From a virus: a stretch of 41,412 bases of DNA. The notes under the pieces were generated by a model. That model did no database searches. It had not been told where the DNA came from and was given only the letters and a program-made list of their open reading frames with translations. Each line of letters begins with the position of its first letter. Positions within the stretch are counted from its first letter, which is position 1. The stretch is taken from IMG/VR virus record IMGVR_UViG_3300035698_019092, positions 1 to 41,412 of that record. One strand, given 5' to 3'. The translations under genes and the position numbers were made by a program. Shown here piece by piece: positions 2,735-29,502 of the stretch.

Positions 2735-2823
2735 CAAAGTAAAGTATTGAACCCACAAGCTACCAGGCTTTGTACTGGACACCACCCCAGGGCGGGGGAG
2801 GTTAGCTTTTCAGACATGGCCAC

Positions 2824-3156: not shown

Positions 3157-3209
3157 ATTTTGGCTGGTGTGACACTACTTAACACCCCCTTGGGGGGGGG
3201 GAGGTGATT

Positions 3210-3473: not shown

Positions 3474-3515
3474 TAGTAGTTACCCTCCCCAGTTTTTGTC
3501 TGGCATCCGATTTTA

Positions 3516-4247
3516 CTAAAGACTTGCAGGGCGACCGTGACCCGCCTCTGTATGTCTAATACGATATAGACCAGGTAAATCAATTCCTTTAATCTTGTGA
3601 GTCTTTACCATCTTAGTACGAAAAGCCCTATCACAACTACACGCAACAAACTCACCATTAGTAGGTCTCATCCATTTTGAGTCACCATGCAAATAACCAT
3701 ACTCTCTAGCGTAATCTCCTAATACAATTTGGACACCGCCAATGGCTCGATTGTACTTTTTGGTAATAAATTCGCTGGGGTCAATAGTAACTATTCGAGG
3801 AATACCTCCAACAAACCGAGATGCTTTGTCACCCGTAGCATGATTCCGATGAATCATAATCTTTTTAGGATAAATCATACCCACGTTTTCAGGCCACTCG
3901 AATTCAGTTAACCGATCGATTATTCTTTCTCGGAAACACTGATCAACATCCGAAAACCAAATTACATCGGCTGCCGATGATTTAGCTGCCCTATCTCGTC
4001 CAATAGCACGCCTCCCGAGTTCACCCGCAGACAATGGCACCACCACCAAATTGTCGCCTAGTATTGTACTAGCCCACCTTAAAACATTCATTGTGGCATG
4101 ATCTGAAACCGTTGCACACACAACAAGAACCACACGACAACTTCTCTTCGGTTTGTTTAGTACCAATGAAGATACTTGATAACACAAAGCATCTGCATAG
4201 TGTGAAAGATTTTTAGCATAACAATGTGACACTATTTCAATCAACAT
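3516..4247 (-). CDS. Glycosyltransferase, GT-A fold (GT2-like)
   Basis: A 243-residue protein that probably transfers a sugar from a nucleotide donor. A start at ATG is supported by GGGAGAAATGGG. The region GRDRAAKSSAADVIWFSDVDQCF (about residues 83-106) is the diagnostic part: a conserved acceptor-side helix followed by the D-x-D metal- and nucleotide-binding motif SDVD. The C-terminal third, with GEFVACSCDRAF and RHTEAGHG, fits the second half of a small GT-A fold. It overlaps the KdsB-like gene by 11 bp. Donor and acceptor cannot be told from sequence. Confidence 0.75.
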   Translation of the reverse strand: MLIEIVSHCYAKNLSHYADALCYQVSSLVLNKPKRSCRVVLVVCATVSDHATMNVLRWASTILGDNLVVVPLSAGELGRRAIGRDRAAKSSAADVIWFSDVDQCFRERIIDRLTEFEWPENVGMIYPKKIMIHRNHATGDKASRFVGGIPRIVTIDPSEFITKKYNRAIGGVQIVLGDYAREYGYLHGDSKWMRPTNGEFVACSCDRAFRTKMVKTHKIKGIDLPGLYRIRHTEAGHGRPASL

Positions 4248-4998
4248 CCCATTTCTCCCTGGTCATTTGATCCAAAACAAATTCGTAGTCGTCCTTGGTG
4301 TTTATTGCCCTTGGTACATAATCCCCCATTGAAATTGCGTGAATCTTATAGCCTCGTTCAATCCATGACAATTGCTCTAACCCCTCGACCCGACTGTATT
4401 CTGATGGTACATTCCTAGTACAACCATGCAAGAGAGACGGATTGAATGAGTAAATCCCTACGTGTAATCCAGCTAATGGTAAATTTTGTCTAGAAAACCA
4501 ATGACACAATCCATTGGAATACACTACTTTCACACTGTCAGATAATTCCTCGGTGTTATTACAACCTACTAAAGTTCCAATAACTGGGGTGGTAAACATA
4601 AAATTGACAGCGTTAACAAGCATTGGATTGTACTCATCACATTGCCAATTGATAATCACATTAAAACGATCATCTTGGTTGATTTGTCTTATAATTTCAT
4701 CACATCGATGAGTTCCAGTAAGATGATCTGGTCTAGTCGGCCTCCATATCAACTTGTGGTCCTCACAATAACCACAAATTGCTCTGTCGGGTGAAGCTAC
4801 TACAACATAATCAGCAAGGGTTTGTAGAGCTAAATCATATACTCTATGAATTAAAGCTTTTCCTTTCATATCCAATAAAGGTTTTCCTGGCAAGCGTTGA
4901 CTTCCCATTCGTGCCGGAATTATCACTATATTCTTTTGCCCCCGGTCATCACCCACATCTATTGGTTTTGGTGATTTATCAAAAATAGTCGAACTCAT
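4237..4998 (-). CDS. kdsB-like: CMP-Kdo synthetase-like cytidylyltransferase
   Basis: A 253-residue homologue of 3-deoxy-manno-octulosonate cytidylyltransferase, which activates Kdo (or a related keto sugar acid) as its CMP derivative. Landmarks in order: the nucleotide loop IIPARMGSQRLPGKPL (26-41), HLTGTHRCDE (92-101; typical KdsB has H-x-S/T-G-T-D-R), NWQCDEYNP (117-125; usually NVQGDEP), WFSRQNLP, HVGIYSF and VEGLEQLSWIERG. The metal-binding Asp is kept while the Gly is Cys, so activity is likely but specificity may differ. Length matches the family. It overlaps both neighbours, which are a glycosyltransferase and a sulfotransferase-like gene. Confidence 0.85.
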   Translation of the reverse strand: MSSTIFDKSPKPIDVGDDRGQKNIVIIPARMGSQRLPGKPLLDMKGKALIHRVYDLALQTLADYVVVASPDRAICGYCEDHKLIWRPTRPDHLTGTHRCDEIIRQINQDDRFNVIINWQCDEYNPMLVNAVNFMFTTPVIGTLVGCNNTEELSDSVKVVYSNGLCHWFSRQNLPLAGLHVGIYSFNPSLLHGCTRNVPSEYSRVEGLEQLSWIERGYKIHAISMGDYVPRAINTKDDYEFVLDQMTREKWDVD

Positions 4999-5530
4999 CT
5001 GAAATTTCCCTTTCAGCTTCTAGAGTTTGATTTCTAAGATAATCATTCCAATCAGGACATTCTATTAGTGTAGGTATATCAATGGTTTCCAATCGATGTA
5101 CCATAGAATTAACTAATTCCAACCCACTAAGAAAATCACCAAACGCATCGGGCATATCCTCTATACGCATTCGTGTATCGCAATCATACTGATTGAAAAC
5201 TCCTGTAATTGCCCCTGGTTTTATGGTTAAATACGAAGATACAAAACGAACAAATCCCCGATTTGGATTATCCAATCCCTTTGCGAATGTTTCCAATATT
5301 GGGCAAGTAGAACCCGACAACAATTGTAAATAGACCAATCCTAACCAATCACACGGATTTCGTACCAATGAAACTCGTAACCTACTGGTCGGTTTTTTCA
5401 ATAGGGGAAATTGTCCTGTAGCAAAGTGAGGAGCTGTATGACCAAAACCAATAACTCTACAAGCTTCAACAAACCAATCAGCCCCCGTTTCTGGGGGTGT
5501 TGCAAATACAAAATGGTTGTAGTTAATCAT
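4979..5530 (-). CDS. Divergent sulfotransferase-like protein
   Basis: A 183-residue protein starting MINYNHFVFATPPETGADWF, with the ATG overlapping the stop of the upstream gene. The N-terminal strand-loop-helix PPETGADWF matches the layout of the PAPS 5'-phosphosulfate loop (P-K-T/S-G-T-T-W), and RVSLVRNPCDWLGLVYLQ matches the 3'-phosphate motif (R-N-P-x-D). The first Lys is replaced by Glu, so catalysis is uncertain. It could be an active sulfotransferase with altered chemistry or a non-catalytic relative. It lies between a Sulfotransfer_2-type gene and the KdsB-like gene. Confidence 0.6.
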   Translation of the reverse strand: MINYNHFVFATPPETGADWFVEACRVIGFGHTAPHFATGQFPLLKKPTSRLRVSLVRNPCDWLGLVYLQLLSGSTCPILETFAKGLDNPNRGFVRFVSSYLTIKPGAITGVFNQYDCDTRMRIEDMPDAFGDFLSGLELVNSMVHRLETIDIPTLIECPDWNDYLRNQTLEAEREISDEFDYF

Positions 5531-6173
5531 AACTATACCTAAAAAAATCAATGTCTTTTTGATAGATTTTCGTCACTATATCAACTAAATCATCATCATA
5601 CCAATCCTGATATTTCCAACTAACCCGATTGGATCGTTTTATATGGGGTAGTGTGGATTCTGTTAAACTCAACATTTTCATCAGTAACGCCCAATCACGA
5701 GACAATTCTTCAAATTGTCCTATGAAGTCTACTCCCCATTGTAACCACTCTACTTGTTGATTTGCTTGGGACCAATCGTGAACACATCGTTTCCCCAATG
5801 GATGAACAAAATCCCCGTCTGCTATCTTATAAACAAACTTCGTAAAAGACCCCAAATAGTTGTTTGACTCCCGATCTCGTCTCTGCTTCAGTCGATACCC
5901 TCTCAAATATTCGTACAGAGAAACTAATCGATCCCATGGGTTACGAACAAAGGCAAACTTCAAACAACTATCAAACCACTCTTGGGTGAAAACTCCTCTC
6001 TTCAGTAATAACCCTACTGAGGTATGCTGAGTAGTCGTCCACCAAACGGTAGGATCACACTTAGGGTGGAGTGAGTAGGTTAAATCCTGATAGCTTGAAA
6101 TATGGGTTTTAGCCCATCTATTCATAGATGTTCCCGCCGTCCTTGGAACATGAATAAAAATTACTTGACGCAT
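5523..6173 (-). CDS. Sulfotransferase (carbohydrate type), copy A
   Basis: A 216-residue enzyme predicted to move sulfate from PAPS to a sugar. The 5'-phosphosulfate loop IFIHVPRTAGTSM (about 5-17) and the 3'-phosphate motif FAFVRNPWDRLVSLYEYL are both intact, as is the downstream VEWLQWGVDFIGQFE segment typical of the heparan/chondroitin type (Sulfotransfer_2). The ATG overlaps the upstream stop in TAATG. It is a paralogue of the gene at 6729-7397, with a 53-bp stretch identical at the DNA level. Acceptor unknown. Confidence 0.85.
   Translation of the reverse strand: MRQVIFIHVPRTAGTSMNRWAKTHISSYQDLTYSLHPKCDPTVWWTTTQHTSVGLLLKRGVFTQEWFDSCLKFAFVRNPWDRLVSLYEYLRGYRLKQRRDRESNNYLGSFTKFVYKIADGDFVHPLGKRCVHDWSQANQQVEWLQWGVDFIGQFEELSRDWALLMKMLSLTESTLPHIKRSNRVSWKYQDWYDDDLVDIVTKIYQKDIDFFRYSYD
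5908..5960. repeat. 53-bp direct repeat, copy 1 (in sulfotransferase A)
   Basis: Identical base for base to 7138-7190. It encodes KFAFVRNPWDRLVSLYEY, the PAPS 3'-phosphate site. Identity includes third codon positions and stops sharply on both sides. Confidence 0.9.
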
Positions 6174-6763
6174 TATACTACTACCCACCATATTCCATTT
6201 AAAGCAACCGCACCATTCTGAATATTCTGCTCCTCACAAAATTCATCTATGGCATAACGAACTCCTGGAAACCTTTCGTTTCTGTAATCATGCACACAAA
6301 ATAATCCACCTGATCGTACTAGTGGAAAATAGACCCTGAGAGATTTACGGACGGCGTCCAGTAAATGAGAGTCATCTAAGAAAACAAAATCAACTGGGGT
6401 AGGAATTGATTTGACTGCTTCCAATCGGTCCATTTGCAATATAGTATATCTACTTGGGTTAAATCTACTTAACTCTTTTTCTGCTGATAAATGGACCTGC
6501 AACATATTTTCCGATGAAATCCCGCATTGAATATGACCATCCCCCAACTCCCAGGTATCTACTAAATACATCTTCAAATGGGGAAAACCATCCAGTAAAT
6601 AACTGCTAATCTTAGCGTGCCATACCCCTACCTCCACTCCCACCTTAATCGTTCGATCATACCCTAGTTGATCATCTCTTTCAGATGGTTGGATATGTAA
6701 ATCAAGAAGTTCTTGTAAACGTTTAGCCCTAATCTTTGCTTTTAAGGGGGGGATCGAACTCAT
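6173..6763 (-). CDS. SAM-dependent methyltransferase (Methyltransf_24-like)
   Basis: A 196-residue class I methyltransferase. KVGVEVGVWHAKISSYLL is motif I (Glu-x-Gly-x-x-x-x), MYLVDTWE follows as motif II, VDFVFLDDSHLLDAV matches the acidic motif of this subgroup, and GGLFCVHDYRNERFPGVRYAIDEF is the strand and helix that usually follow (the GG-x-x-x-x-HD signature). Such proteins often sit in polysaccharide loci as sugar O-methyltransferases. The start has GAGG 7 nt upstream. It lies between the two sulfotransferase paralogues and overlaps the upstream one by 35 bp. Confidence 0.8.
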   Translation of the reverse strand: MSSIPPLKAKIRAKRLQELLDLHIQPSERDDQLGYDRTIKVGVEVGVWHAKISSYLLDGFPHLKMYLVDTWELGDGHIQCGISSENMLQVHLSAEKELSRFNPSRYTILQMDRLEAVKSIPTPVDFVFLDDSHLLDAVRKSLRVYFPLVRSGGLFCVHDYRNERFPGVRYAIDEFCEEQNIQNGAVALNGIWWVVV

Positions 6764-7397
6764 AATTAAACCTCATAATGTCATCACTATAATATAAAGA
6801 CACTAACGCTTGATCATCATCTGTGTAATATGATCTGTAGTCTTTTCTGGTTTTTGTTGTGTTTTCTCTCAAAAGTTTCTTACAGGGTATTTCAATTAAA
6901 TCACAAATTATCTTCCAATCATCCTCTAACGACTCAAATTGACCAACGTAATCAACCCCCCACTGTAACCACTCTACTTGCGGTCGGGCTTGAGAAAAAC
7001 AACGTACATTACGAATCCCAAGAGGCTTAACAAATTTCTGACTCGATTCGGTTACAGCCCTTACAAAATCCGAAAAGCAACCCAGTGTTTTCGTACTGTC
7101 CGCATTCGGTTTAGTTTTAATTCTGAAACTTCGGAGGTATTCGTACAGAGAAACTAATCGATCCCATGGGTTACGAACAAAGGCAAACTTAAAAGAATTA
7201 CTCCACCAATCAACCGTTACTATTTTTCGTTGAATTAAATCAGAAACCGAACGATGCCCTATATCTGTGAAATCTGTATTTGGTGTCCAAACATTACAGT
7301 GATTTCTCTGGTAGGTTATTCCCTCCATTTGTTCAACCGTACGAGTAATGGAGGTGCCAGCCGTCCGAGGAATGTGAATAAGTATGGTTGATTTCAT
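6729..7397 (-). CDS. Sulfotransferase (carbohydrate type), copy B
   Basis: A 222-residue paralogue of the gene at 5523-6173. ILIHIPRTAGTSITRTVEQM carries the 5'-phosphosulfate loop and FAFVRNPWDRLVSLYEYLR the 3'-phosphate site; RPQVEWLQWGVDYVGQFESLE is shared with copy A. The start is coupled to the upstream methyltransferase through ATGA. The two copies differ in their central and C-terminal parts, which normally set acceptor choice, so they may sulfate different positions. Confidence 0.85.
   Translation of the reverse strand: MKSTILIHIPRTAGTSITRTVEQMEGITYQRNHCNVWTPNTDFTDIGHRSVSDLIQRKIVTVDWWSNSFKFAFVRNPWDRLVSLYEYLRSFRIKTKPNADSTKTLGCFSDFVRAVTESSQKFVKPLGIRNVRCFSQARPQVEWLQWGVDYVGQFESLEDDWKIICDLIEIPCKKLLRENTTKTRKDYRSYYTDDDQALVSLYYSDDIMRFNYEFDPPLKSKD
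7138..7190. repeat. 53-bp direct repeat, copy 2 (in sulfotransferase B)
   Basis: Partner of 5908-5960, at a distance of 1,230 bp. A second, shorter block of near identity (TGTAACCACTCTACTTG on the plus strand) lies near 6965 and 5740. Confidence 0.9.
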
Positions 7398-7981
7398 TTA
7401 GTCCCCACTAAATTATTGGGTGAAGTCATCACCAGGAGTTTTTGTCTCATACGCCGTTTCTTTACTTTTTTACGGGCTTTCTTCTGTAAAACATTATTTA
7501 CACAAAAACCACAACGATTAAATAAACCTACAACATAATCCACTGACCTACAATTTACGTGGTGGTGTCCCCTTTGTCCCGGTGTTGCCCAAGTAACTAT
7601 CACCCCATCCTTACAAGCCCGGGTGATATTTTCTACTACAATCGACTCAAACTCAGCGGGGATGTGTTCACCAACCTCTGTAAATAATCCCCAATGACAA
7701 ATATTCTTTCTCAGAAAATTGGTATTGGGGACACTCAAATCACAAAATTGCACTAGTCCTTCCGATAATTCCTCTACCCCTTCTCCTCCATCCAATCCAA
7801 AAGCCGAATACCCTAGATCACCCAAAGCCTGAACGTATCGACCTGTACCAGCTCCAAACTCTATAATGGTTTGTTTGGGAGGTACAATCAATCCAATGGC
7901 TTCAAGCAACTCCGTTTTTTTCTTTTTTGTACGACGTTTCATCATACCGTAAGAGTATCCACCCAAAGCCCGACTGTTCAT
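7394..7981 (-). CDS. SAM-dependent methyltransferase with basic flanks
   Basis: A 195-residue protein. TIIEFGAGTGRYVQALGDLG (about 39-58) is a classical motif I, followed by FGLDGGEGV, and WGLFTEVGEHIPAEFESIVV matches the Methyltransf_23 segment that includes the conserved Glu-His. A very basic N-terminus (KRRTKKKK) and a C-terminal KKARKKVKKRRMRQK could contact an anionic partner such as a sulfated glycan or nucleic acid. It is the fourth gene upstream of the KdsB-like gene and probably modifies a sugar or a small acceptor. Confidence 0.75.
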   Translation of the reverse strand: MNSRALGGYSYGMMKRRTKKKKTELLEAIGLIVPPKQTIIEFGAGTGRYVQALGDLGYSAFGLDGGEGVEELSEGLVQFCDLSVPNTNFLRKNICHWGLFTEVGEHIPAEFESIVVENITRACKDGVIVTWATPGQRGHHHVNCRSVDYVVGLFNRCGFCVNNVLQKKARKKVKKRRMRQKLLVMTSPNNLVGTK

Positions 7982-7990
7982 AATTAACTC

Positions 7991-8728
7991 TTAGTGCTTG
8001 TGAGAGAAAACTGCATCTGGTTTGGTTACCCCTAAACTCTTGACTAGGGATCTACGAGTAGTCATTACAACGGGGTCAAAGTTGTCATACAATTGTTGTA
8101 GAGTCATTTCCCCAAAGCGTTTATCGATTGAATACGTTATGGTATGTTCATCTCCTACTTTATTTTCCTGGGATAGCTCCTCATAATCTTTTAGGAACAA
8201 ATCCATTAACCTACTACTACTAACATAGATAAAACATCCAAACATACCAATACGAGGACTAATACGATTCCAACCATCACCACTAACACTTCTCCACCAA
8301 TAGTGATTATGCTTCTTATAGCGTATTTGAGGCATCTGAAGAATTCGACCTAATCCGTCGTGACTTCTTACCACATTCAATACATCATCAGGGTCAAATG
8401 GTTTAAGAATCTTCACGTCAAAGTCTGTATAAATAATATCCGGCGAATCCTCCAAAGCTAAACGCATTAGGTACATTTTATTCCATGACCATACTCCACC
8501 ACTTTCCACCGGAAGAGGTTCATTTCCACACTGCCTAATATGCAAAGCCCCCAGAGAATGGAGTAAATTTGTTGCTTGAATTCCCAAAGTATAATAAACA
8601 ATTGTCTTACGAACAAAATGCCGCCAAAATTCAGGTTTGTTGCTATCAAAAGAATTGTCCAAATCCTTTAGTATTTTCGGTCTAGTTTCACTGAAATCAG
8701 AACCATACAAAACTCGTATGTAACTCAT
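7991..8728 (-). CDS. Glycosyltransferase with D-x-D motif
   Basis: A 245-residue protein. SPDIIYTDFDVKILKPFDPDD (around residues 95-115) carries TDFD as the metal-binding D-x-D of a GT-A enzyme, with a neighbouring WSWNKMYLMRLALED helix as in GT32/GT8-type enzymes that read a host-like membrane acceptor. A downstream motif, GMFGCFIYVSSSRLMDLF, and GDEHTITYSIDKRFGE resemble the acceptor half of GT8-like folds. Donor unknown. The ATG follows AAGGATAGATAGA. It sits between a methyltransferase and a sulfotransferase. Confidence 0.65.
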   Translation of the reverse strand: MSYIRVLYGSDFSETRPKILKDLDNSFDSNKPEFWRHFVRKTIVYYTLGIQATNLLHSLGALHIRQCGNEPLPVESGGVWSWNKMYLMRLALEDSPDIIYTDFDVKILKPFDPDDVLNVVRSHDGLGRILQMPQIRYKKHNHYWWRSVSGDGWNRISPRIGMFGCFIYVSSSRLMDLFLKDYEELSQENKVGDEHTITYSIDKRFGEMTLQQLYDNFDPVVMTTRRSLVKSLGVTKPDAVFSHKH

Positions 8729-8729
8729 T

Positions 8730-9410
8730 CTATCTATCCTTATTCTTCGGACGATACACCTTGATCGGACTGGTCTTTTTACAGAATGGAGTTTTCTTAG
8801 GTGGGGGAGATACCCCTAAAAATCTCGACAGTCGTTTCCAAAGTGTCGAATCTACTTCAGTAAAAACATTCACTACTAATAATCTATGGGTACCTTCAAA
8901 ATAGCGAATCACACTTTCCGAATGACAAACAATCCCAGCCCGAGTTTCCTCTAGGGTTGGTCGCCTATCCAAACCAAACAACACTTGCCGACTCAAAATT
9001 CTACGTCGATTGTCGTTGGTTGTTCCTTTAGCGTGTTTATAGTAGGAACTGCTCCAATCGTCCAATGGTCGTTGAGGTAGAATAAACTTGGCTTCCGGAT
9101 AATCCTCAGCTAATTGCTTCCAATGAATAGATCCCAAGTGACCTGAGTAATCATATTGGCTGTAAACCACTAAATCGGATCTACCTGATCTTGCTTTCGA
9201 GAAGAAATCCTCCACGCATTCCAAACAACCTCCAGTACCGTGCATCCCGTAAAATCCTAACTTGCTTACCGCTTGCCAAATACTACGACTAGCAGATCGC
9301 CCCATCCCTATTTCAAAAAATTTACAAGGACCCCCCTTGGCTGGTTGTCCCAAATGAATGGGACACGCCCATGGGGCATTTCTAATCTGGTTGGATCGCC
9401 GATTCCCCAT
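8730..9410 (-). CDS. Sulfotransferase family protein
   Basis: A 226-residue protein. FFEIGMGRSASRSIWQAVSK (about 31-50) is the 5'-phosphosulfate loop in the G-x-x-R-S-x-S-x form, and KFILPQRPLDDWSSSYYKH (about 108-126) supplies the 3'-phosphate site (R-P-x-D-x-x-S). A Pro- and Lys-rich C-terminus follows (SPPPKKTPFCKKTSP). It resembles the Sulfotransfer_3/4 group more than the pair at 5523 and 6729, so the region carries at least two sulfotransferase lineages. It overlaps the upstream methyltransferase by 29 bp. Confidence 0.75.
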   Translation of the reverse strand: MGNRRSNQIRNAPWACPIHLGQPAKGGPCKFFEIGMGRSASRSIWQAVSKLGFYGMHGTGGCLECVEDFFSKARSGRSDLVVYSQYDYSGHLGSIHWKQLAEDYPEAKFILPQRPLDDWSSSYYKHAKGTTNDNRRRILSRQVLFGLDRRPTLEETRAGIVCHSESVIRYFEGTHRLLVVNVFTEVDSTLWKRLSRFLGVSPPPKKTPFCKKTSPIKVYRPKNKDR

Positions 9411-10002
9411 TTTTCTTCTCCACTACTAAAATTACACTATACTTGGTATCACGATCACAGTAGATCAAATCTACTACATGACCAACCTGATTCATCAAAT
9501 AGATGTATTCATGTAGACTAGCACCAAAACAATCTCCACCCCTACTTGGTCTCTTCCTAGCCTTCTGAAGCAAATGACCTACAGTCCATTGAATGAACAA
9601 TAACCCACCGTCGACCAATTGATTCAACCAAACATCGAGGGCCCTTCCAGGCATAAACGTATGATCTAGACTATTGGAAAAAACAAAATCAAATTGTCCA
9701 ACCCATATGGGGTTAAGTTGGTGAAAATCCCACTGAATAACTGATGACTCCAAAGGGTTCAAATCAGTACCAATTATTTTTGCATCGGGAAAATATTCTT
9801 GGAATCTCCGTACCTCAAATCCACAACGGGCCCCGTGACACAAACCCCAACGTGGAGTCAATGACCTACTAAGTAAAAACGAACCAATTGCTTCAATTTC
9901 TTGTATAAAAACACTGGGGGTTCTTCGTTCTCCATGTCGATTTGATCCACGAATCTGAACCCTAACATATTTCTGGTAGCTCTTGAATCGTCGAGTGAAC
10001 AT
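9382..10002 (-). CDS. SAM-dependent methyltransferase
   Basis: A 206-residue class I methyltransferase starting at ATG right after a GTG in frame. Motif I is unusual, GLCHGARCGFEVRRFQEYF, with Cys-His in place of the common Asp-Val and with G-x-R-x-G in place of G-x-G-x-G. It is followed by KIIGTDLNPLE as motif post-I and by FDFVFSNSLDHTFMP as the Methyltransf_11/23-like acidic segment. The C-terminal strand QLVDGGLLFIQW completes the fold. Probably acts on a sugar. It overlaps the upstream glycosyltransferase by 41 bp. Confidence 0.7.
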   Translation of the reverse strand: MFTRRFKSYQKYVRVQIRGSNRHGERRTPSVFIQEIEAIGSFLLSRSLTPRWGLCHGARCGFEVRRFQEYFPDAKIIGTDLNPLESSVIQWDFHQLNPIWVGQFDFVFSNSLDHTFMPGRALDVWLNQLVDGGLLFIQWTVGHLLQKARKRPSRGGDCFGASLHEYIYLMNQVGHVVDLIYCDRDTKYSVILVVEKKNGESAIQPD

Positions 10003-10876
10003 CACTATCTCTTTCTCTAATTACCTTGGCCAGCCGTTTATTGTTTACTGATCTCCACCAATCAGTCACTCCACCTACATTGTTCACACAACACTCTTGA
10101 AACAACTCCATCCAATGGTGATGACCCTCTGGAGCTTTCTCTGGTCTAACGTTACTATCTCCATGATAATGCCAAACTATCACTTTATCTTCGGGTAGAT
10201 CAGGCATCCAATTTCGCCGTACACTACAGTTAAACCTCCCATCTAACCACACTCCCATTTTCTTTTGAGGAACGAATTTTGCCATAAGTATATGCAAAAC
10301 ACACTCATCAGCAATGAAAATATTTCTAGCGTTCCAGGTCCATTTCTCCCATAATGGAAGTACCTCAGAATCAGGACGAGTTGCCCAAACACCCCCATTC
10401 ACACTAACAAATTTACTTACCAGTATAGCTTCTACAAGATTTTGGTCTACGTCACAGTCTCTAAGCTTCCCCACCCTATTCTGAATCAACTCACCATCCG
10501 TAGTCCAGTTTGAAAATCGTGTTGCACAGAAACCCCAATCATTAGCCCATACAAACAATGGATCAAACCTACCGTGAATTGAGGTATCTGCATCTAAATA
10601 CAAATACAATCCATCACCGGGAAACCTCTGGGCTATTTGAATCTTGTTAAGAAACTGAGCATTTTTACCCCTGTATGTTGGTTCCTCCAAAATTACATTG
10701 ATTGGAAAAGGCCAATCCCATTCTTTTGCTATCCGTTGTGCAATCTCAAATGATTCTGGCCACGCAAAAATACTAACGGGAAGAGTATTATGATTTGCCA
10801 GTGTATAAAGAGAAACCACCAAATAGGGTAAATGAGCTGGGCCCGACATCACATAGAAAATCTCATTTTTCAACAT
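9962..10876 (-). CDS. Glycosyltransferase, GT8-like
   Basis: A 304-residue protein with CGGAGAACCGCA ahead of its ATG. MSGPAHLPYLVVSLYTLANH (9-28) is the typical first strand and helix of a GT-A retaining enzyme, and LYLYLDADTSIHGRFDPLF (about 90-108) carries the D-A-D motif. GGVWATRP (about 160) and DECVLHILMA (about 189) match the later elements of GT8/GT-A folds. It starts the run of alternating transferase and methyltransferase genes. Sugar donor and acceptor unknown. Confidence 0.75.
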   Translation of the reverse strand: MLKNEIFYVMSGPAHLPYLVVSLYTLANHNTLPVSIFAWPESFEIAQRIAKEWDWPFPINVILEEPTYRGKNAQFLNKIQIAQRFPGDGLYLYLDADTSIHGRFDPLFVWANDWGFCATRFSNWTTDGELIQNRVGKLRDCDVDQNLVEAILVSKFVSVNGGVWATRPDSEVLPLWEKWTWNARNIFIADECVLHILMAKFVPQKKMGVWLDGRFNCSVRRNWMPDLPEDKVIVWHYHGDSNVRPEKAPEGHHHWMELFQECCVNNVGGVTDWWRSVNNKRLAKVIRERDSDVHSTIQELPEIC

Positions 10877-11198
10877 TGCGGTTCTCCGATTGAATTCTTC
10901 GACTACGCAAGTATCGACTTAACTTTTCGTTTTGGTCGACTAACCACTCCAAATAATCTAATGGTGTATTATCCCGGGTGCGTTTTGCATATACACCAAA
11001 TCCTACTAATTTCTTCCCAAATTTCTGGGCTTCAGTGTCGGTCATTGCTTTTGAGTCAATGTCCGTTGTTTTTAACTCTCGACGAACTCTTCGCCAAAAC
11101 CCTAACTGAAAGTCTGTAGACATTTCCATCAAGTCTTGCAGACAACTCTCCACATATTTTCTACCGTCAATTCTATCCTGATCGTCATCCGTCAGCAT
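10863..11198 (-). CDS. Small helical protein, DUF3820-like C-terminus (tentative)
   Basis: A 111-residue product with start MLTDDDQDRIDG set by AGGAAATCTA. The C-terminal half (GFGVYAKRTRDNTPLDYLEWLVDQNEKLSRYL) has the shape of the small domain found in DUF3820 and in exodeoxyribonuclease X C-termini (F-G-K-x-K-G ... Y-L-x-W-x-x). The Gly-Lys part is degenerate, so the match is weak. The N-terminal half is helical and acidic. It is flanked by two glycosyltransferases, so a role in the same locus is possible but not shown. Confidence 0.4.
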   Translation of the reverse strand: MLTDDDQDRIDGRKYVESCLQDLMEMSTDFQLGFWRRVRRELKTTDIDSKAMTDTEAQKFGKKLVGFGVYAKRTRDNTPLDYLEWLVDQNEKLSRYLRSRRIQSENRNVEK

Positions 11199-12018
11199 TA
11201 GATTTCCTATCTGTAGCCTTATCAACGGCTTCTTGAATTCCCTTAAAAGTACCTCTGTGAACCCACCCCCTTTTTTTCATTCCTACCCGTACAATTTTCA
11301 GACCAAGCCTTTTAGCTAAATACCACATATATCCATCCTGGGAAGGAACCGGTAGAGTAAATTCCTTGGGACCTTTGCATGTAGTAAACGCTAGTAGTGA
11401 CACTACTCTAGTAAATTTAGTACCAAAAAAAGCACACCATGATATGATTCTCTTATGACTCACACGAGATGACATAAGATGAGCGGGTGCGAGTTTTAGT
11501 GGATCAGTTTCTACCAATCGTTTAGGTAATTTCTTACTATTTAATTCAACCCATCGATCCAAATTGAGCATCTGATCCGCAGGTTTGGTGAACCCCCACG
11601 GGTGACTAACAATCGATGGGAACTCTCTAAACCACTCTGGATCGATCCAATCATCATTACCAGCAGCCGTGGTATCCACATCCAATTTCAGCCAATAAGG
11701 AGTAATTACCTGGGCTCCAGCAATATAAACGAACCCCGACAACATTTTATGTCGTTGGTTGTTATCCCATTTTCCATTTCCCGATCCCCACCTAGAGTCA
11801 TTTGAGCAGGGTGGCCACACATATACAGTTAATTGGGGGTGGTCTACTATATCTCTTACATCACTTTCATCAACCTCAAATCTATCCCGAAAAACAATCA
11901 TAGGGTGATTGAGTAATGATGGTTTGTTTTGTCTCCAGGTTGGCCATGTTAGAGCTAATTGATCCAAGTGTTTTTGGTCTACACCACAAACTGTAGTATA
12001 ATCAAAATCTTTTCTCAT
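11185..12018 (-). CDS. Glycosyltransferase-like protein with D-x-D motif
   Basis: A 277-residue protein. The start at ATG overlaps the upstream stop in ATGA. YWLKLDVDTTAAG (about residue 112-124) holds a D-V-D motif preceded by strand and Lys, as in GT-A enzymes, and it is followed by DDWIDPEWF. The N-terminal DYTTVCGVDQKHLDQLALTW is a nucleotide-sugar-binding style first strand. The C-terminus (WVHRGTFKGIQEAVDKATDRK) is basic. It sits just after the cupin gene; function in detail unknown. Confidence 0.6.
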   Translation of the reverse strand: MRKDFDYTTVCGVDQKHLDQLALTWPTWRQNKPSLLNHPMIVFRDRFEVDESDVRDIVDHPQLTVYVWPPCSNDSRWGSGNGKWDNNQRHKMLSGFVYIAGAQVITPYWLKLDVDTTAAGNDDWIDPEWFREFPSIVSHPWGFTKPADQMLNLDRWVELNSKKLPKRLVETDPLKLAPAHLMSSRVSHKRIISWCAFFGTKFTRVVSLLAFTTCKGPKEFTLPVPSQDGYMWYLAKRLGLKIVRVGMKKRGWVHRGTFKGIQEAVDKATDRKSNADG

Positions 12019-12413
12019 AACTTTATTATCCCCCCTGGTTCTATTCTTTCTATATCCTGAGCATCTAGTACCGCCCAATACAACTCGATTGCTTCTCCAT
12101 CTTCTACTCCTTCAAACTGGTGCAAAACACCTGGAGGAACATCGGACACCTGCCCCGTTTGTATTGTCGTCTCATCGATTTTCATTTCATTAGGGGCAAT
12201 ATCCTCATCATGAAATATTCTAATCTTCAAAATTCCACTAATAACAACGAAACGATTCCACTTAATGTGATGTATATGCTTACTACAATAAGCCCCAGCT
12301 CTAAATGTAATCTTGTGACACTCAACTCCATTGTAGGCAAAAATTAACTGAGTAAATCCCCAAATCTTTCCTTGACTGGGACCAATTGGGGGAACCGCAA
12401 ATGTAGGCAACAC
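12015..12413 (-). CDS. Cupin-domain protein (mannose-6-phosphate isomerase type II-like)
   Basis: A 132-residue single-domain cupin. IWGFTQLIFAYNGVECHKITFRAG leads into the first cupin motif, SKHIHHIKWNRFVVISG, and the second, VPPGVLHQFEG, supplies the other metal-binding His. The arrangement fits the C-terminal isomerase-like cupin of ManC-type enzymes or a sugar epimerase-type cupin, and places it in sugar metabolism. GGGAGG lies 6 nt ahead of a GTG at 12413, which I prefer to a start further upstream. It is coupled downstream to a glycosyltransferase. Confidence 0.7.
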   Translation of the reverse strand: MLPTFAVPPIGPSQGKIWGFTQLIFAYNGVECHKITFRAGAYCSKHIHHIKWNRFVVISGILKIRIFHDEDIAPNEMKIDETTIQTGQVSDVPPGVLHQFEGVEDGEAIELYWAVLDAQDIERIEPGGIIKL

Positions 12414-12415
12414 TA

Positions 12416-12904
12416 TTACCCTCCCAGATATGGACACTTTACATCATGGGTTGAAAATACTGGAACATTTCTTATACATGACTGAAACAAATAACCATCT
12501 ACATTGTTCAAATAGTATTTGGAGATAATAGCTGTTACCCTCCAACGTAATGATCTAAAAAACAATTGACACCCTAAATCAGTTTCCCTAACGAGTGATC
12601 TAATCTCCCGAACTTGTGTAGTAGTTCGACCTTCCATATAACGAGCCAAATCGTAACCATACCCCTGTCGTCTATGTTTCGGATGAATCGCACAACTTAC
12701 TACATCTAAAAATGGACGGTTTATCATGTAGAATAAATACCCTACAATTCCCAATCCATCTTTCACAATAACTCGTGAAACTACACTTCGTTGTTGAGTA
12801 ACTTTTAATATATCAGATTCTTTCCAAGGACCTTCAAAACATTCAACGTTTATTCTACTTACATCAGTTAAATCACCAGGGGTCATCTTTCTTACAACTG
12901 ACAT
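12416..12904 (-). CDS. GNAT-family N-acetyltransferase
   Basis: A 162-residue acetyltransferase with AGGAG 8 nt ahead of its ATG. VRKMTPGDLTDVSRINVECFEG is the typical N-terminal strand and helix, and VVSCAIHPKHRRQGYGYDLARYM (about residues 75-97) is motif A, with R-R-Q-G-Y-G as the acetyl-CoA pyrophosphate loop. LGCQLFFRSLRWRV matches motif B. RimI-type and sugar-modifying enzymes share these features; in this neighbourhood an amino-sugar acetyltransferase is a reasonable guess. The stop lies just before the start of the cupin gene. Confidence 0.8.
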   Translation of the reverse strand: MSVVRKMTPGDLTDVSRINVECFEGPWKESDILKVTQQRSVVSRVIVKDGLGIVGYLFYMINRPFLDVVSCAIHPKHRRQGYGYDLARYMEGRTTTQVREIRSLVRETDLGCQLFFRSLRWRVTAIISKYYLNNVDGYLFQSCIRNVPVFSTHDVKCPYLGG

Positions 12905-12915
12905 AAACCAAACTC

Positions 12916-13944
12916 CTATAGTTTTTCGTACCACTCGCTCAGATCCGGTTGACGTTCAACCCCCTTTGTAACATCCATTATCGCCTCAGAAAATGGGCAG
13001 AATGCAAACGCCCTGAGCCTACTGTATTCATAGCAATTGTAAACCTCCAAACCAAATTTTTGGAATATCCCACCAGCTTGTATTCTACACAACCAATCAT
13101 TGACAACATCATACTTATTATTATCTAATTGCAGCACACCAGTTTTTTTGTTTCTCTTGTGTTCTATTGATTGTGCGAACGCATACCGACGAGTATCCGA
13201 CATAGAAAAATCAGCACCCAACAAATAGATTCGACTCACCCCCAAAAACTTTAGAAGTCTAATCCCCAAAAGCATGGTGTTCACACTTTTCAATTCTCCT
13301 GTACGATTTACCCCCTTATTCAAATTACCCCAACAAGCCCCATCCGATAAGAAGAAATTTTCATCTGGGATTAACCAACTATTCCGGCGAAACCCCCAGA
13401 CATTGGGAGACGTATTAGTACGAATCGGGGATACCTCAAACTGTCCGGGCCCTACTTTGACTTTGATTTTACTACGATAACCCGTCATCTTGGGAGTTGG
13501 AATAAACTTCATTATTCCCGCATCAAACCAAATCGAATGACTAAACTTACTGGGGGGATCAGAACAAACAAATGACTGGGGTCTAAACCTAGAGTGACCC
13601 GCCATATTGTTTACACACATAGTCCAAGCCCCCCTATGATTCAATGCCTCCAAAGGAAGGTCATTGCAGGAGGGTCCACCACACGCAAGAAAAGCACTGC
13701 GACCACCCAACAAATCTCGAATTGCTGTGGTGGGGCGGCGCCGGCGGTCGATCACAAAAAGAGGGTCTAACCACTTGCGAGAAAAATGAGGATCACTGAT
13801 TTGTAAACGATGATTACATCGTTCACACCCAGGATACTTTACAGTACCTTTACCCCGAACACATTTCTCTAGTAGTTGACATTTGTGAATGTGATCTTTC
13901 TGGTGTAAACGCTTAGTATCTACCCCTAGATACACACAATCCAT
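12916..13944 (-). CDS. DUF115-like protein with Cys-rich N-terminus
   Basis: A 342-residue protein; GGGGAGAACTATT precedes the ATG of MDCVYLGVDTKRL. The first 45 residues carry several Cys (CVYLG, KCQLLEKC, YPGCERC) that look like a metal-binding tag. From about residue 75 the protein has the pattern SAFLACGGPSCNDLPLEAL, then WTMCVNNMAGH, and later RIYLLGADFSMSD, which matches the DUF115 / flagellin-modifying Maf-like and sialyltransferase-like group. Such proteins act on activated sugars, so this probably is a glycan-transfer enzyme. Two genes downstream of it lies the cupin. Confidence 0.65.
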   Translation of the reverse strand: MDCVYLGVDTKRLHQKDHIHKCQLLEKCVRGKGTVKYPGCERCNHRLQISDPHFSRKWLDPLFVIDRRRRPTTAIRDLLGGRSAFLACGGPSCNDLPLEALNHRGAWTMCVNNMAGHSRFRPQSFVCSDPPSKFSHSIWFDAGIMKFIPTPKMTGYRSKIKVKVGPGQFEVSPIRTNTSPNVWGFRRNSWLIPDENFFLSDGACWGNLNKGVNRTGELKSVNTMLLGIRLLKFLGVSRIYLLGADFSMSDTRRYAFAQSIEHKRNKKTGVLQLDNNKYDVVNDWLCRIQAGGIFQKFGLEVYNCYEYSRLRAFAFCPFSEAIMDVTKGVERQPDLSEWYEKL

Positions 13945-14008
13945 AATAGTTCTCCCCAACTGGTTTCCCCATTGTAAATTGAACCTCAATTCAAAACAAG
14001 TTGAGAAT

Positions 14009-16213
14009 TTAGGGACCTACCCAACTAGAAGCAAAATCATGTGAGGCAATACTACTACGTGTATGTTGACCCCGCAACAATTCCCGATCTCGAAACTCCA
14101 CCGGTAAAAAAGTGCTTTGTTCGTATACTCGTACATCCCCTCGATCATTAACTACATCAGTAATCAAAGGAGGACCAATCGAATTAGGGTATTTTGGATT
14201 GAAATACACTAATAACCTCTTGAGCACATCAGATATAAACGGGTGAAATTTAATACATCCTAATACCCCATTGCAACAATGACCATCCTCCGAAGCCTTT
14301 ACAGCAAAAGCAGAACAATCAACAATACTATCTAAACAACGAAGCGGTTCAAAGTCAACGTCTAGATATACTCCACCATTTTTGTAGAGAATCCAATACC
14401 GAAGCAAATCCACTTGTTGGGCAGGTTTTGAACATCTATCATAAATATAATGTAAAACCTCCGGAAGTATTCCCCGGAGGTTTCCCTTCCACAACTTATA
14501 GTCCCATTCTGGGTGCATTACTTTCCACTTTTCACACCAATCTCTATACTTTGAAGGCATCTCATCATCCCCTACCCAAATCTGGTGTATTTGTTTAGGA
14601 ATACTTGGAATTGGATCTACTGCCAAATCACGCTCTATGAAAAATATAGGTTGGAGGTCGAGCCGGTGTTTTTTTTGGAATAGAGGTAGCTCACTACGTC
14701 GAATACGAAAACGAATATAGATGGGATTCAACTTTCGTACGTGACCAAATATACAATCAGGAGTGTAAAACACCCCTATTTTTTTCTGTATACAATCAAG
14801 AGCCCAATCAGGGTGCTCAAACCTAATTTTGAACTGAGGGTCCCACTGACAATTCATTAGAGTTTCTCGTCTAGCAACAAAACAATTATTTGTCATGTCC
14901 ACTCGACGATAACGAACACCCCCAGGACCAACTCGCCAAGCCGTACGAATTGGCATAACACATAAAATCCTCTTCCCTTCTGGGGTCCTTTTCATTATCA
15001 ATTGTGCATTAAGATTCTGTGGAGTTGTTCCATCAAACCTAACGCACGCCGACAATATATCTACATCGGAATCACTATCCAAGCATTCAATCATTATTTT
15101 CAGATTGGTCTCTTTACTTATTACCATATCATCGTCTATTAGTACAACATATGGTTCGGATGCTTCTTGAATCAGCCGGTTCCGCCCGGCAGACAACCCA
15201 ACATCAAAACTCTCTTGTATCCATTTCACCCCGGGGGTTGATCGAACCCACTCGGCATCTGGAGGGTATTTGGGGTCATCCTGAAAACTGTCGTCTACTA
15301 TAGTGATAGGTACATTTGGATAGTGTAATCGAATTGATTCAACACAACGCCGTAAACACCCAAATCGTTTGAAACTCTTGATTAAAAATTCTAGGTCTTT
15401 CACCTCAGAGGATAATTTTGTAGGTTGAAGTTCTTTAGTATGAACGGCCTTTGATCGGTCTACGTGAGCTACCGCATTCATAAATTGACGTTCGGTAGGA
15501 CCCAAGTCTAAATACTCTACAATGCGATTTAACTCTGCTAATGGTTCTACTAACAAATCATGGATTTGAACCACTAGATGATCCCGACCCTGGAGAAAAT
15601 CAGTTTTTCTTTCTTGTAACCACCTCTGGAGTTTCGCACACTGTTTTCGACTGGCCCTAAATCTGAGATTTTTTGTGTCCGATGATCTGGTTGTCAAGGA
15701 CCGGATTGACTCGTCAATTGGACGTTCTAGGCTGATTATCTTCATGGGTTGATTTGTACTAGCAAAATCAGCTATCAATGCACATAAGTGTGGATACTTC
15801 ATACCATAGTGTTGACCATTTGCGTCATAACGATGTACTGATAACCAATCAAGGAACCATCTTACTCTGGATTTAGCACAATTATACCCTAAACCCATGG
15901 GTGTTAGGGTCCGGGTTGGAAAGGGCAGTGCGTTTTCACAAAAATGAGCAAGCTTTGAGTCTTCTCCTCCTTGGGTATTTTGGCCCATATACACCCCAAG
16001 TTTCTCTAAGCATTCAGCCACACAACTAGATAGTGTCCGGTGAATCCCCAATACAACAATTAGAGGAAAATCACCAGGGGTTGTATTATCTACAGAATTT
16101 GAATCAGCGTTACAATTCCGACTTGCATTTACCTTTAGGGGAGATAAAGTACATCCTTTTCGAGTACAATGCCACAACCCATCGGGCTTTTGCTTTAGAG
16201 TGCAATCAATCAT
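14009..16213 (-). CDS. Trifunctional sulfotransferase / GT2 / GT32-like fusion
   Basis: A 734-residue protein whose ATG overlaps the stop of the upstream tail gene (ATGA). A short Cys tag (DCTLKQKPDGLWHC) comes first. Region 1 (about 50-260) is a sulfotransferase: VVLGIHRTLSSCV as 5' loop and SLERPIDESIRSL as 3' site. Region 2 (about 275-500) is a GT2-type glycosyltransferase: ITIVDDSF and VVLIDDDMV. Region 3 (about 530-734) is GT32/OCH1-like: IPKQIHQIWVGDDEMP and DLLRYWILYKNGGVYLDVDF. The fusion joins two sugar transferases to one sulfate transferase. A single continuous frame with no internal stop supports it. Confidence 0.8.
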   Translation of the reverse strand: MIDCTLKQKPDGLWHCTRKGCTLSPLKVNASRNCNADSNSVDNTTPGDFPLIVVLGIHRTLSSCVAECLEKLGVYMGQNTQGGEDSKLAHFCENALPFPTRTLTPMGLGYNCAKSRVRWFLDWLSVHRYDANGQHYGMKYPHLCALIADFASTNQPMKIISLERPIDESIRSLTTRSSDTKNLRFRASRKQCAKLQRWLQERKTDFLQGRDHLVVQIHDLLVEPLAELNRIVEYLDLGPTERQFMNAVAHVDRSKAVHTKELQPTKLSSEVKDLEFLIKSFKRFGCLRRCVESIRLHYPNVPITIVDDSFQDDPKYPPDAEWVRSTPGVKWIQESFDVGLSAGRNRLIQEASEPYVVLIDDDMVISKETNLKIMIECLDSDSDVDILSACVRFDGTTPQNLNAQLIMKRTPEGKRILCVMPIRTAWRVGPGGVRYRRVDMTNNCFVARRETLMNCQWDPQFKIRFEHPDWALDCIQKKIGVFYTPDCIFGHVRKLNPIYIRFRIRRSELPLFQKKHRLDLQPIFFIERDLAVDPIPSIPKQIHQIWVGDDEMPSKYRDWCEKWKVMHPEWDYKLWKGNLRGILPEVLHYIYDRCSKPAQQVDLLRYWILYKNGGVYLDVDFEPLRCLDSIVDCSAFAVKASEDGHCCNGVLGCIKFHPFISDVLKRLLVYFNPKYPNSIGPPLITDVVNDRGDVRVYEQSTFLPVEFRDRELLRGQHTRSSIASHDFASSWVGP

Positions 16214-17247
16214 GTATAAATCCTCACAGAAGCACCAGCCGATCCCGCCCAATTAGTATTTGACATATACCCCAATACCTTATCAAAATTGGTGCAATCC
16301 AAAGGCGCCGAGTATGGACCCCCTCGAAATAAAGCACCGAATCCACAACCACCCACCCCACTAATGAAAAAAGTAATATAGGTCATGAACCCCCCACCAG
16401 TAAAAGACATTGAAAGTGATGCAAAAGTAGGATAATTATACTCCCAACCAATAGTCCCTAGTAAACAAGCATTACCAACTTTACTTAAAACCTTGGTGCC
16501 ATTGGGATTACACCTCGGAGTCGACAAATATTTTTTACCAAACAGCCCACACCCAAAATCTAGAGCCTCGGGAAACCCCGATAACTCTGCATAATAAAAA
16601 TTATTGTGTACTCCACACCCATCACACGGTCCCCTAAGTAAAGCATCCTCAATATCATCATTGTAGGTTGTTGGTGACGATCCATTGGAACCCGACAAAG
16701 TAGCAGTTAACGGAGCATAGTCCGGTGCGACACTTGTTTTTGTGAGATTAACCGAAAAATCGGTGCAGAAAGACTCTCGTTGATAATCACTAATATAAGA
16801 AAGGGTATACTTATTCCACGATGGTATTCGTACCCCCATATAATAACCATAGTAACCATGACACCCAGTATAAACCTCAAACAAACGATCTCCAACATCT
16901 GGAGTACCAAAACACCCTGGATATACAACACAAGTAAATAAATCACTGGCCCACTTACAAGCAGTAAAATCAACCGTCCAGGGATCTTGATCTAAAGGCC
17001 ATGATGACTCAGCACATTCAACCCACGGGATGTAGTATGTTTTATTGTGACAACTACAAGGGTAACCCGAAGAAATATTTACCCAATCCGAAAAACTTAA
17101 TGCCACACAATCAGGAGTAGTCTCCCGGAAGTGCCGACAATCAGAATCACATGTACGACAAGCCGGAACATCCAAAGCAAACCCACCGGGATTAGAACCC
17201 CGGTACATTGCTTTACCATTATACAATAAAGCTTTTTGCTTAGGCAT
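16210..17247 (-). CDS. Cys-rich distal tail or receptor-binding protein
   Basis: A 345-residue protein with 19 Cys, starting MPKQKALLYNGKAMYRGS. The TAATG overlap with the upstream gene and its position after the tape measure and two further tail genes make it a distal tail or fibre candidate. The Cys come in C-x-x-C and C-x-C pairs (CRTCDSDC, CSCHN, CDGCG) among Gly-, Tyr- and Thr-rich beta segments, which suggests metal- or disulfide-stabilised repeats. It lies directly ahead of the glycan genes. No family is recognised. Confidence 0.55.
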   Translation of the reverse strand: MPKQKALLYNGKAMYRGSNPGGFALDVPACRTCDSDCRHFRETTPDCVALSFSDWVNISSGYPCSCHNKTYYIPWVECAESSWPLDQDPWTVDFTACKWASDLFTCVVYPGCFGTPDVGDRLFEVYTGCHGYYGYYMGVRIPSWNKYTLSYISDYQRESFCTDFSVNLTKTSVAPDYAPLTATLSGSNGSSPTTYNDDIEDALLRGPCDGCGVHNNFYYAELSGFPEALDFGCGLFGKKYLSTPRCNPNGTKVLSKVGNACLLGTIGWEYNYPTFASLSMSFTGGGFMTYITFFISGVGGCGFGALFRGGPYSAPLDCTNFDKVLGYMSNTNWAGSAGASVRIYT

Positions 17248-18023
17248 TAGTAACTACAAGGATCAATACAAGAACTCCAAGCAATAGCAGGTAAACCAAT
17301 CCACCTACCTCCAGCATTCATCGATTGTCCTGTACTTCCTGAACTTTCGGGACTCCCCGAACTTTCTTCCTCCACTTCATAAGATGGGTCCCAAAAACAT
17401 AGGACCTCGTCCCCGTCATTGGATGGTACATTAAATATATTGTACACTTGACCTGGATTACTAGGGGATACTCCCCCACTTAAATAAAGGAATCGAAAAT
17501 CACTGATTAGAAATATTGAATCTGTAGCTTCTACTCCACCAGACTGATCTACTACAGCAACCCCACAAGCAAATCCTCCCAGTGTTGTTGTTGGACTATC
17601 TGGATACTTAAATGGTATAAACATACCACGTTGTTCATCCCAATAGCAAGAGTACCTTTGCCCCATTATCAGTTGTAACTCTACCCCATTTGAATCTATT
17701 GGGTACTCTTCACTACTAGTTTCCCAAGATTCCTCGTTGTGATTATAATGAAACCACCTACCTAAATAATGATGGGGGATTTCAGTTGTTCCCCCTGAAC
17801 TACTAGATTCATCTTCAAGTGTAGCCGATGCCGTAACCTCAAAAAGACCCGTATCCCCCGGAACCTCCCCAGTAACACCAGAAACCACACCTGCATGTCG
17901 AACACTAAGCGACCCTCGAAAACACTGGTGAACCATTCTCTCTACCATTATTCGTAGAGGTTCCCAATCTTTTGAGGCCGATAGTCCGTCGCCACCTTTC
18001 TTCTGGGGTAACCGATCATTCAT
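17247..18023 (-). CDS. Probable distal tail protein
   Basis: A 258-residue protein; ATG follows the TAG of the upstream gene by one base, and a TTG four codons earlier is an alternative. It is beta-rich with Ser/Gly linkers (DESSSSGGTTE, and EVEEESSGSPESSGS near residues 223-238) and ends with GGRWIGLPAIAWSSCIDPCSY. The Gly- and Trp-rich body and the position between a tail-tip-like gene and a Cys-rich gene suggest a tail component. Homology not recognised. Confidence 0.5.
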   Translation of the reverse strand: MNDRLPQKKGGDGLSASKDWEPLRIMVERMVHQCFRGSLSVRHAGVVSGVTGEVPGDTGLFEVTASATLEDESSSSGGTTEIPHHYLGRWFHYNHNEESWETSSEEYPIDSNGVELQLIMGQRYSCYWDEQRGMFIPFKYPDSPTTTLGGFACGVAVVDQSGGVEATDSIFLISDFRFLYLSGGVSPSNPGQVYNIFNVPSNDGDEVLCFWDPSYEVEEESSGSPESSGSTGQSMNAGGRWIGLPAIAWSSCIDPCSY

Positions 18024-18024
18024 A

Positions 18025-29023: not shown

Positions 29024-29502
29024 TAGTCACCCTCCACATCAACCAAAGTAGCTGCAAACTCCGCAGATACCCTAGTAAGAAGAGTTGCAAACAATCGCTT
29101 TACGAACTTACGATCTTTTTTATATTTTTCATCACCGGTTCCGACTGCCGTCAAAAATCTTCCGACATCGTGGAAGTTAGGTCGCTGGTCGATTATCTTA
29201 CTGGAGTGTTTGAATGGGACAGTTTCCGTACCCAACTTTACACCCAAATTCACCAAACAATCACGAGTCATTACGGCTAACGCAACGACCTCTTCCTCCG
29301 AACCAAAAAAGACCATCCCCAAAACCCTGGGGCGATCAACCGAAAGTTTTACGTTGTCGGGCATCGACATTAGAACTTTCTCCTTGACATCTGGTTTTCG
29401 TATTTCCAAGTGTACAGTTTCATCACCTATAAAAACCGAATCTGAACCAACATACCTTGCCTTGCTTTGGTGCCGATTCCATTTATCTACCAGAGTATTC
29501 AC
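29023..29502 (-). CDS. Unknown head-region protein
   Basis: A 159-residue protein. The GTG start overlaps the TGA of the upstream poly-serine gene (GTGA); a GTG seven codons earlier is an alternative. Beta and helical segments alternate: VFIGDETVHLEIRKPDVKEK, KLSVDRPRVLGMVFFGSEEEVVALA and KHSSKIIDQRPNFHDVGRFLTAV, ending KFVKRLFATLLTRVSAEFAATLV. No domain is recognised. It is translationally coupled to both neighbours. Confidence 0.6.
   Translation of the reverse strand: MNTLVDKWNRHQSKARYVGSDSVFIGDETVHLEIRKPDVKEKVLMSMPDNVKLSVDRPRVLGMVFFGSEEEVVALAVMTRDCLVNLGVKLGTETVPFKHSSKIIDQRPNFHDVGRFLTAVGTGDEKYKKDRKFVKRLFATLLTRVSAEFAATLVDVEGD

Follow-up and report, generated by a model that had tools for sequence, protein, structure and literature searches.

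Organisation of a putative glycan-modification cassette

The stretch of DNA analysed here, henceforth the window, is the 41,412-base virus record IMGVR_UViG_3300035698_019092 from IMG/VR, a contig that is probably a fragment. Its late genes lie on the minus strand in the order head-tail adaptors, portal, protease, major capsid protein, tail genes and tape measure (at 18969), and they are followed by a cassette of 17 consecutive minus-strand open reading frames (ORFs), from 16252 down to 3516, whose products are mostly related to enzymes that build and decorate glycans. The cassette encodes six glycosyltransferase-type domains, five sulfotransferase-type domains and three methyltransferases, along with a DUF115-like enzyme, a protein resembling the synthetases of cytidine monophosphate-activated 3-deoxy-D-manno-octulosonic acid (CMP-Kdo), a GNAT acetyltransferase and a cupin. 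An earlier note on this DNA had described fourteen consecutive genes placed after the tail genes; the placement and the consecutive run are borne out, but the run comprises 17 ORFs (3516-16252), and apart from this count the gene inventory holds under Pfam searches and motif inspection. Domains were assigned by a Pfam search of the window proteins, and E-values are from Pfam unless otherwise stated:

14009..16252, minus strand: three-domain protein with a sulfotransferase-like N-terminus, a GT2 glycosyltransferase domain (3e-12) and a Gly_transf_sug domain of the GT32 type (2e-12)
12916..13989, minus strand: DUF115/Maf-like enzyme of predicted CMP-sialyltransferase (GT42) fold; proposed initiating serine O-glycosyltransferase
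12416..12934, minus strand: GNAT acetyltransferase (E 9e-6)
12015..12437, minus strand: cupin of the WbuC/Polysacc_synt_C type (E 8e-6)
11185..12078, minus strand: probable GT-A-type glycosyltransferase, core cassette gene; invariant KxDxD only, no Pfam or PDB match
10863..11225, minus strand: small protein without assignable function; no Pfam match
9962..10876, minus strand: GT8/glycogenin-like glycosyltransferase, core cassette gene; weak match (glycogenin, E 1.4e-4 in a profile search)
9382..10005, minus strand: probable methyltransferase (weak match, E 0.014)
8730..9410, minus strand: sulfotransferase (Sulfotransfer_4, E 9e-16)
7991..8728, minus strand: probable DxD glycosyltransferase; motif TDFDVKILKPFD read from the sequence, no Pfam match
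7394..7981, minus strand: probable methyltransferase (weak match, E 0.0015)
6729..7397, minus strand: sulfotransferase (Sulfotransfer_2, E 2e-14)
6173..6763, minus strand: methyltransferase (Methyltransf_24, E 2e-8)
5523..6191, minus strand: sulfotransferase (Sulfotransfer_2, E 8e-15)
4979..5551, minus strand: sulfotransferase-type P-loop enzyme, core cassette gene; family motifs PRTGTTWF and VRHPxDWLxSxY in the alignment
4237..4998, minus strand: CMP-Kdo synthetase-like (KdsB) cytidylyltransferase (CTP_transf_3, 5e-23; NF003952, E 2.8e-40, under that model's cut-off)
3516..4247, minus strand: GT2-like glycosyltransferase, core cassette gene; weak GT2 match in 10 of 16 relatives, orthologues in 18 of 50 contigs

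Judged by sequence similarity, the best-supported assignments are the predicted sulfotransferases at 5523, 6729 and 8730, the cytidylyltransferase at 4237, the GT2 and Gly_transf_sug domains of 14009, the methyltransferase at 6173 and the GNAT protein at 12416; the remaining functions are suggested by weak profiles or motifs. Thus, the N-terminal sulfotransferase call in 14009 follows from the motifs GIHRTLSS and LERPIDESIRS (Pfam E only 0.08), while the 4979 protein has no Pfam match and its best PDB profile match reached E 0.39. A PDB search with 5523 returned nothing useful. A relative of the 4237 protein (L108:3819-4541) clears the NF003952 cut-off. In related phages a core consisting of the DUF115, cupin, 11185, 9962, 6173, 4979, KdsB and 3516 genes is found 3' of the tail genes.

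Poly-serine proteins encoded among the virion genes

The three proteins with long poly-serine tracts that the earlier note had pointed out are real. They are encoded in the same late operon, and relatives reveal a fourth position for such tracts:

38211..40766, minus strand: poly-serine protein 1 (polyS1), about 712 poly-serine residues; adjoins the head-tail adaptor gene
29499..30269, minus strand: poly-serine protein 3 (polyS3), FN3 domain (about residues 1-105) and disordered serine tail (tract of about 161 residues); among the head genes
22791..23543, minus strand: poly-serine protein 2 (polyS2), conserved N-terminal domain of about 185 amino acids and C-terminal serine tail (tract of about 67 residues); between the tail completion and major tail protein genes
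17247..18035, minus strand: tail-region protein, several orthologues of which have poly-serine tracts here (the fourth position)

The tracts use all six serine codons, and identical adjacent serine codons are no commoner than expected by chance (0.22 observed and 0.22 expected in polyS1). An origin by DNA slippage was rejected on account of this mixture of codons, which speaks for selection on the protein. Alignments of the polyS2 and polyS3 families show a folded conserved domain with the serine tail following at the same place, and the polyS3 gene of the relatives has the protease gene on one side and minor head genes on the other. The predicted structure of its N-terminal domain is an FN3 fold, which also finds matches in tail proteins of phage lambda, and its tail is predicted to be disordered. 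Matches of the polyS2 profile to designed ankyrin repeat proteins (DARPins) were judged spurious, and a PDB search with the polyS2 N-terminal domain otherwise gave nothing useful.

The ends of the tails show a pattern of their own. The window polyS3 ends in SSSSWSSQSQP and a conserved SSSSW(S/T)(S/T/A) closes many of the serine tails, with a tryptophan within the last 14 residues in 19 of 37 polyS3 and 10 of 38 polyS2 proteins; this end is possibly a recognition tag. One polyS3 orthologue (G002:22260-22727), on a contig that stops short of the cassette locus, has a tail reduced to eight serines.

Linkage of the cassette and poly-serine genes in the capsid lineage

To find relatives we scanned IMG/VR with an alignment of the capsid protein, which yielded about 80 loci, and mapped the window proteins on 50 whole contigs. 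A nucleotide search with the cassette against 50,697 phage records and a tblastn search with the capsid protein were both without a match, and a capsid search of bacterial genomes recovered no relative. By profile, polyS2 is present in 42 and polyS3 in 44 of the 50 contigs, nearly all with serine tails. All 21 ingroup contigs that extend to the cassette locus carry the cassette together with poly-serine genes (G000, G005-G010, G014, G017-G019, G021, G026, G029, G032, G035-G037, G039, G040 and G047, with G005/G017 and G029/G037 being near-duplicate pairs), as do G050 and G052, which were found via DUF115. In the two distant capsid relatives that serve as outgroups, G038 and G042, cassette and poly-serine genes are both absent, bar two methyltransferase homologues in G038. 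The comparison of related phages that the earlier note had called for agrees with a link between the two sets of genes. Contigs with poly-serine genes and no cassette end before or near the cassette locus; three of them (G003, G025 and G030) continue for 2-6 kb beyond the tail gene, where no DUF115 gene was recognised and G030 has a GT2 gene, and these three count neither for nor against the link. Apparent poly-serine ORFs in antisense orientation were taken to be artefacts of the opposite strand and set aside; one example is G042:15132, which lies across from the protease on the plus strand. Several contigs also encode a second, diverged DUF115 paralogue in the head region (G019:15792, G021:24776, G023:16520, G026:30622 and G050:30870), which in a number of them lies close to a gene of the polyS1 type.

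Recurrence of the association in unrelated phages and prophages

A scan of IMG/VR with a single DUF115 sequence gave nothing, and an alignment-based scan reached phages without a detectable capsid homologue. Prominent among these is a large group, here termed lineage B, that shares no capsid homologue with the window and has its own tail genes, followed by DUF115 and directly thereafter a Ser/Gly-rich protein, often with a 14009-type glycosyltransferase. In a scan seeded with the lineage-B tape measure, the gene directly following DUF115 is Ser-rich in all 20 lineage-B loci with room for it, several of these loci being contigs also recovered by the DUF115 alignment scan; no DUF115 is present in the available stretch of three distant relatives by tape measure, two of which contain a short Ser-rich ORF. 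Other DUF115 lineages with poly-serine genes are G053, G060, G067, G074 and L256. Among loci of at least 10 kb, a serine tract of at least 50 residues is present in 23 of 36 distant DUF115 loci versus 1 of 123 control loci, a strong trend to which no formal probability is attached, as neither set consists of independent loci and the controls are mainly enterobacterial phages. By eye, some lineage-B Ser/Gly-rich proteins (L239:10702-12276, L258:10702-12237, L253, L257 and L227) seem to embed a Hint/intein-like domain (LxGTxVxxxxG...VHN), which suggests possible self-processing.

Among 84,980 bacterial and archaeal species genomes, 31 of the 33 with DUF115 relatives belong, by record title, to Planctomycetota or Verrucomicrobiota. 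Many of the Planctomycetota loci are lineage-B prophages in which tail genes, DUF115 and a Ser-rich gene occur together. In the Verrucomicrobiota loci, DUF115 is accompanied by 9962-, 11185- or 3516-like genes, and several of these sets look chromosomal (L464, L467, L470, L472, L473, L482 and L490); such sets are a possible source of the phage enzymes. The window phage may accordingly infect a bacterium of the Planctomycetota-Verrucomicrobiota-Chlamydiota (PVC) type and would have drawn its cassette enzymes from such hosts.

The DUF115 protein as a candidate initiating enzyme

The AlphaFold model of the DUF115 protein (12916; pLDDT 89) finds its best PDB matches in the CMP-sialyltransferases Cst-I/Cst-II (GT42) and in GT29 (E 0.005, probability 0.98). 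All 19 DUF115 members match PHROG 4603, "alpha-2,3-sialyltransferase" (best 3e-9), and nine of the 19 weakly match PF01973 (best E 6e-5). DUF115 also has a conserved GGPS motif. The model thus points to a Cst-II-like fold, with scores that are weak but specific to CMP-sialyltransferases. The Maf_flag10 domain of flagellin O-glycosyltransferases is likewise Cst-II-like, and Maf enzymes can transfer N-acetylneuraminic acid (Neu5Ac) or Kdo from CMP donors onto Ser/Thr (PMC11339370). The phage system resembles them in predicted fold, in the likely CMP-keto-sugar donor and in the proposed cytosolic O-glycosylation, which Maf enzymes perform on Ser/Thr (PMC11339370), and differs in that its proposed acceptor is a serine tail instead of flagellin and that its enzyme has the Cst-II-like domain only, with a weak Pfam match. 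No flagellin gene turned up in our scans, in which the neighbours of DUF115 are phage tail and Ser-rich genes. The combination of a CMP-Kdo synthetase-like donor enzyme, a DUF115 fold and Ser-rich acceptors is consistent with a single pathway.

A proposed virion glycosylation pathway and its alternatives

Taken together, we consider it probable that the cassette is a phage-encoded cytosolic glycosylation system whose substrates are the C-terminal poly-serine tails of the phage's own virion-operon proteins. The earlier note's reading that the cassette modifies these tracts thus gains strong indirect support from the co-occurrence in one late operon, the conserved C-terminal tails, the recurrence of the pairing in phages and prophages with unrelated structural genes, and a cassette that combines a Maf/GT42-type enzyme and a CMP-Kdo synthetase and is devoid of membrane, flippase and lipid-carrier components; its terms "mucin-like" and "sulfated" go further than this evidence. 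Late in infection, the KdsB-like enzyme would produce a CMP-activated keto-sugar, Kdo or a relative, which the DUF115/GT42-fold enzyme would move onto serine hydroxyls of the tails, as Maf does on flagellin. The glycan might then be elongated by the GT2, GT8-like, DxD and GT32-type enzymes and capped by the sulfotransferases, methyltransferases and GNAT protein. The tails, held on the head by the FN3 domain and near the tail tube and neck by the other domains, would form a bottle-brush coat on the particle that could serve in shielding, protease protection or adhesion. Sulfation and a mucin-like coat are weaker steps in this proposal than self-glycosylation of the serine tails.

Several observations weigh against this proposal. 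The virion glycan is a prediction from gene content; TM-scores of the DUF115 model to Cst-II are low (0.3-0.47), and the window's own DUF115 protein has no Pfam match to PF01973. On some long contigs the serine gene lies far from DUF115 (more than 10 kb in G053, 30 kb in G067), and G072, a fragment of 25 kb, carries DUF115 but no poly-serine gene. The chromosomal DUF115 sets of Verrucomicrobiota, with their GT8/GT2-like homologues, are mostly without adjacent poly-serine genes, so DUF115-type enzymes can have other acceptors and the pairing is not absolute. The association within the capsid lineage could be inherited instead of functional, lineage B counts as one lineage, leaving about six or seven independent associations, and the controls are mostly enterobacterial phages, whereas PVC phages might be generally Ser-rich.

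The Verrucomicrobiota sets also fit the alternative, which the earlier note had entertained in the form of a block to superinfection, that the cassette alters host surface glycans such as lipopolysaccharide or capsule, either against superinfection or to free progeny, with the poly-serine tracts acting as unmodified flexible spacers. Seroconversion through phage glycosyltransferases is well known, and Kdo is a lipopolysaccharide sugar. We nevertheless regard this as unlikely. All core cassette enzymes lack transmembrane segments, which were seen only in two diverged DUF115 paralogues from the head region and, in some relatives, in short ORFs without assignment; PF02397, the initiating phosphoglycosyltransferase, was found in none of 26 records, and neither of these checks revealed a membrane flippase or lipid-linked initiating transferase. 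These absences make lipid-linked surface glycan assembly improbable, and the alternative is weakened further by the placement of the cassette in a late structural operon and by the recurrence of the poly-serine pairing in lineage B despite its unrelated structural genes.

A coincidence of inheritance is also rather improbable: phages of Ser-rich PVC hosts would carry poly-serine as mechanical spacers and glycan genes for another acceptor, e.g. tail fibres. The common ancestry of the relatives, the PVC affiliation of 31 of the 33 genomes with distant DUF115 relatives and the non-PVC origin of the controls favour it, but neither feature is present in G038 and G042, which are distant relatives by capsid, and DUF115 adjoins a Ser-rich gene in unrelated phages. 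Addition of sugars to phage DNA, a frequent target of phage glycosyltransferases, is very improbable, for such hypermodification normally requires a modified base and a thymidylate synthase homologue exceeds the cut-off in just 1 of 26 records, while the late, tail-adjacent location, the poly-serine linkage and the sulfotransferases would be left unexplained.

Two further features of the window lie outside the cassette. Positions 1-3500 have a GC content of about 0.47-0.50, compared with about 0.40 in the cassette, and contain small ORFs without assigned function. At its C-terminus the portal protein (32673-35510) is extended by a long stretch in which a NPNRDPSSGRFGSG motif recurs, and one of its segments resembles by eye a PD-(D/E)xK nuclease.

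Relation to known systems and implications

Gram-positive serine-rich repeat adhesins, the precedent named by the earlier note, have a Ser-rich acceptor beside dedicated transferases (GtfA/GtfB). The phage arrangement shares this proximity, and differs in that its acceptors are virion-operon proteins; a GtfA/GtfB-type pair or accessory Sec system did not turn up in Pfam/NCBIfam scans, none of which was aimed at them. Maf flagellin O-glycosylation and mycobacteriophage virion glycosylation are closer parallels. To judge from secondary accounts of Freeman 2023, the capsid and tail-tube C-termini of mycobacteriophages such as Che8 and Rita bear glycans from phage enzymes (via PMC12619734 and PMC11256854). 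As far as these accounts go, the likeness, drawn by description, lies in phage-encoded glycosyltransferases that act, in the window phage presumably, on virion-protein C-termini; the mycobacteriophages modify the capsid and tail-tube subunits themselves, whereas the window phage has separate poly-serine-tailed proteins at several virion-gene positions as candidate scaffolds, and further stands apart by its GT42/Maf-type enzyme, CMP-Kdo synthetase and several sulfotransferases. Glycosylation clusters for giant-virus fibrils, where a virus-encoded sugar pathway is proposed for the particle surface (PMC10117803, PMC9614988), are alike by description in their virus-encoded particle-surface glycosylation, and belong to viruses of eukaryotic hosts with unrelated capsids. 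In view of the mycobacteriophage precedent, phage-encoded virion glycosylation is already known and a system of this kind is not new; what sets this one apart is that poly-serine scaffolds are joined by sulfotransferases and an initiating enzyme of the GT42/Maf type. We found no report of poly-serine virion proteins with such a cassette in the open-licence literature, which does not prove that none exists.

Glycosylated phage particles are so far known in few cases. That the cassette nearly always travels with poly-serine genes suggests that these phages probably wear a sugar coat, perhaps a sulfated and mucin-like one. In the large uncultivated group brought to light by this survey, and in unrelated Planctomycetota prophages, particle glycosylation seems to be built in, with proteins specialised as acceptors, an initiating enzyme of its own and enzymes for sulfation. 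The fullest form of the proposal, which we put forward tentatively and hold somewhat short of probable, is that widespread phages, probably of PVC-type hosts, cover head, neck and tail with a mucin-type bottle-brush, sulfated and linked through a keto-sugar, by means of a Maf-like initiator and poly-serine scaffolds. If true, this would be the first mucin-like coat in prokaryotic viruses, might allow the phages to escape trapping or defence, and would provide new soluble O-glycosyltransferases for simple poly-serine sequences of use in glyco-engineering.

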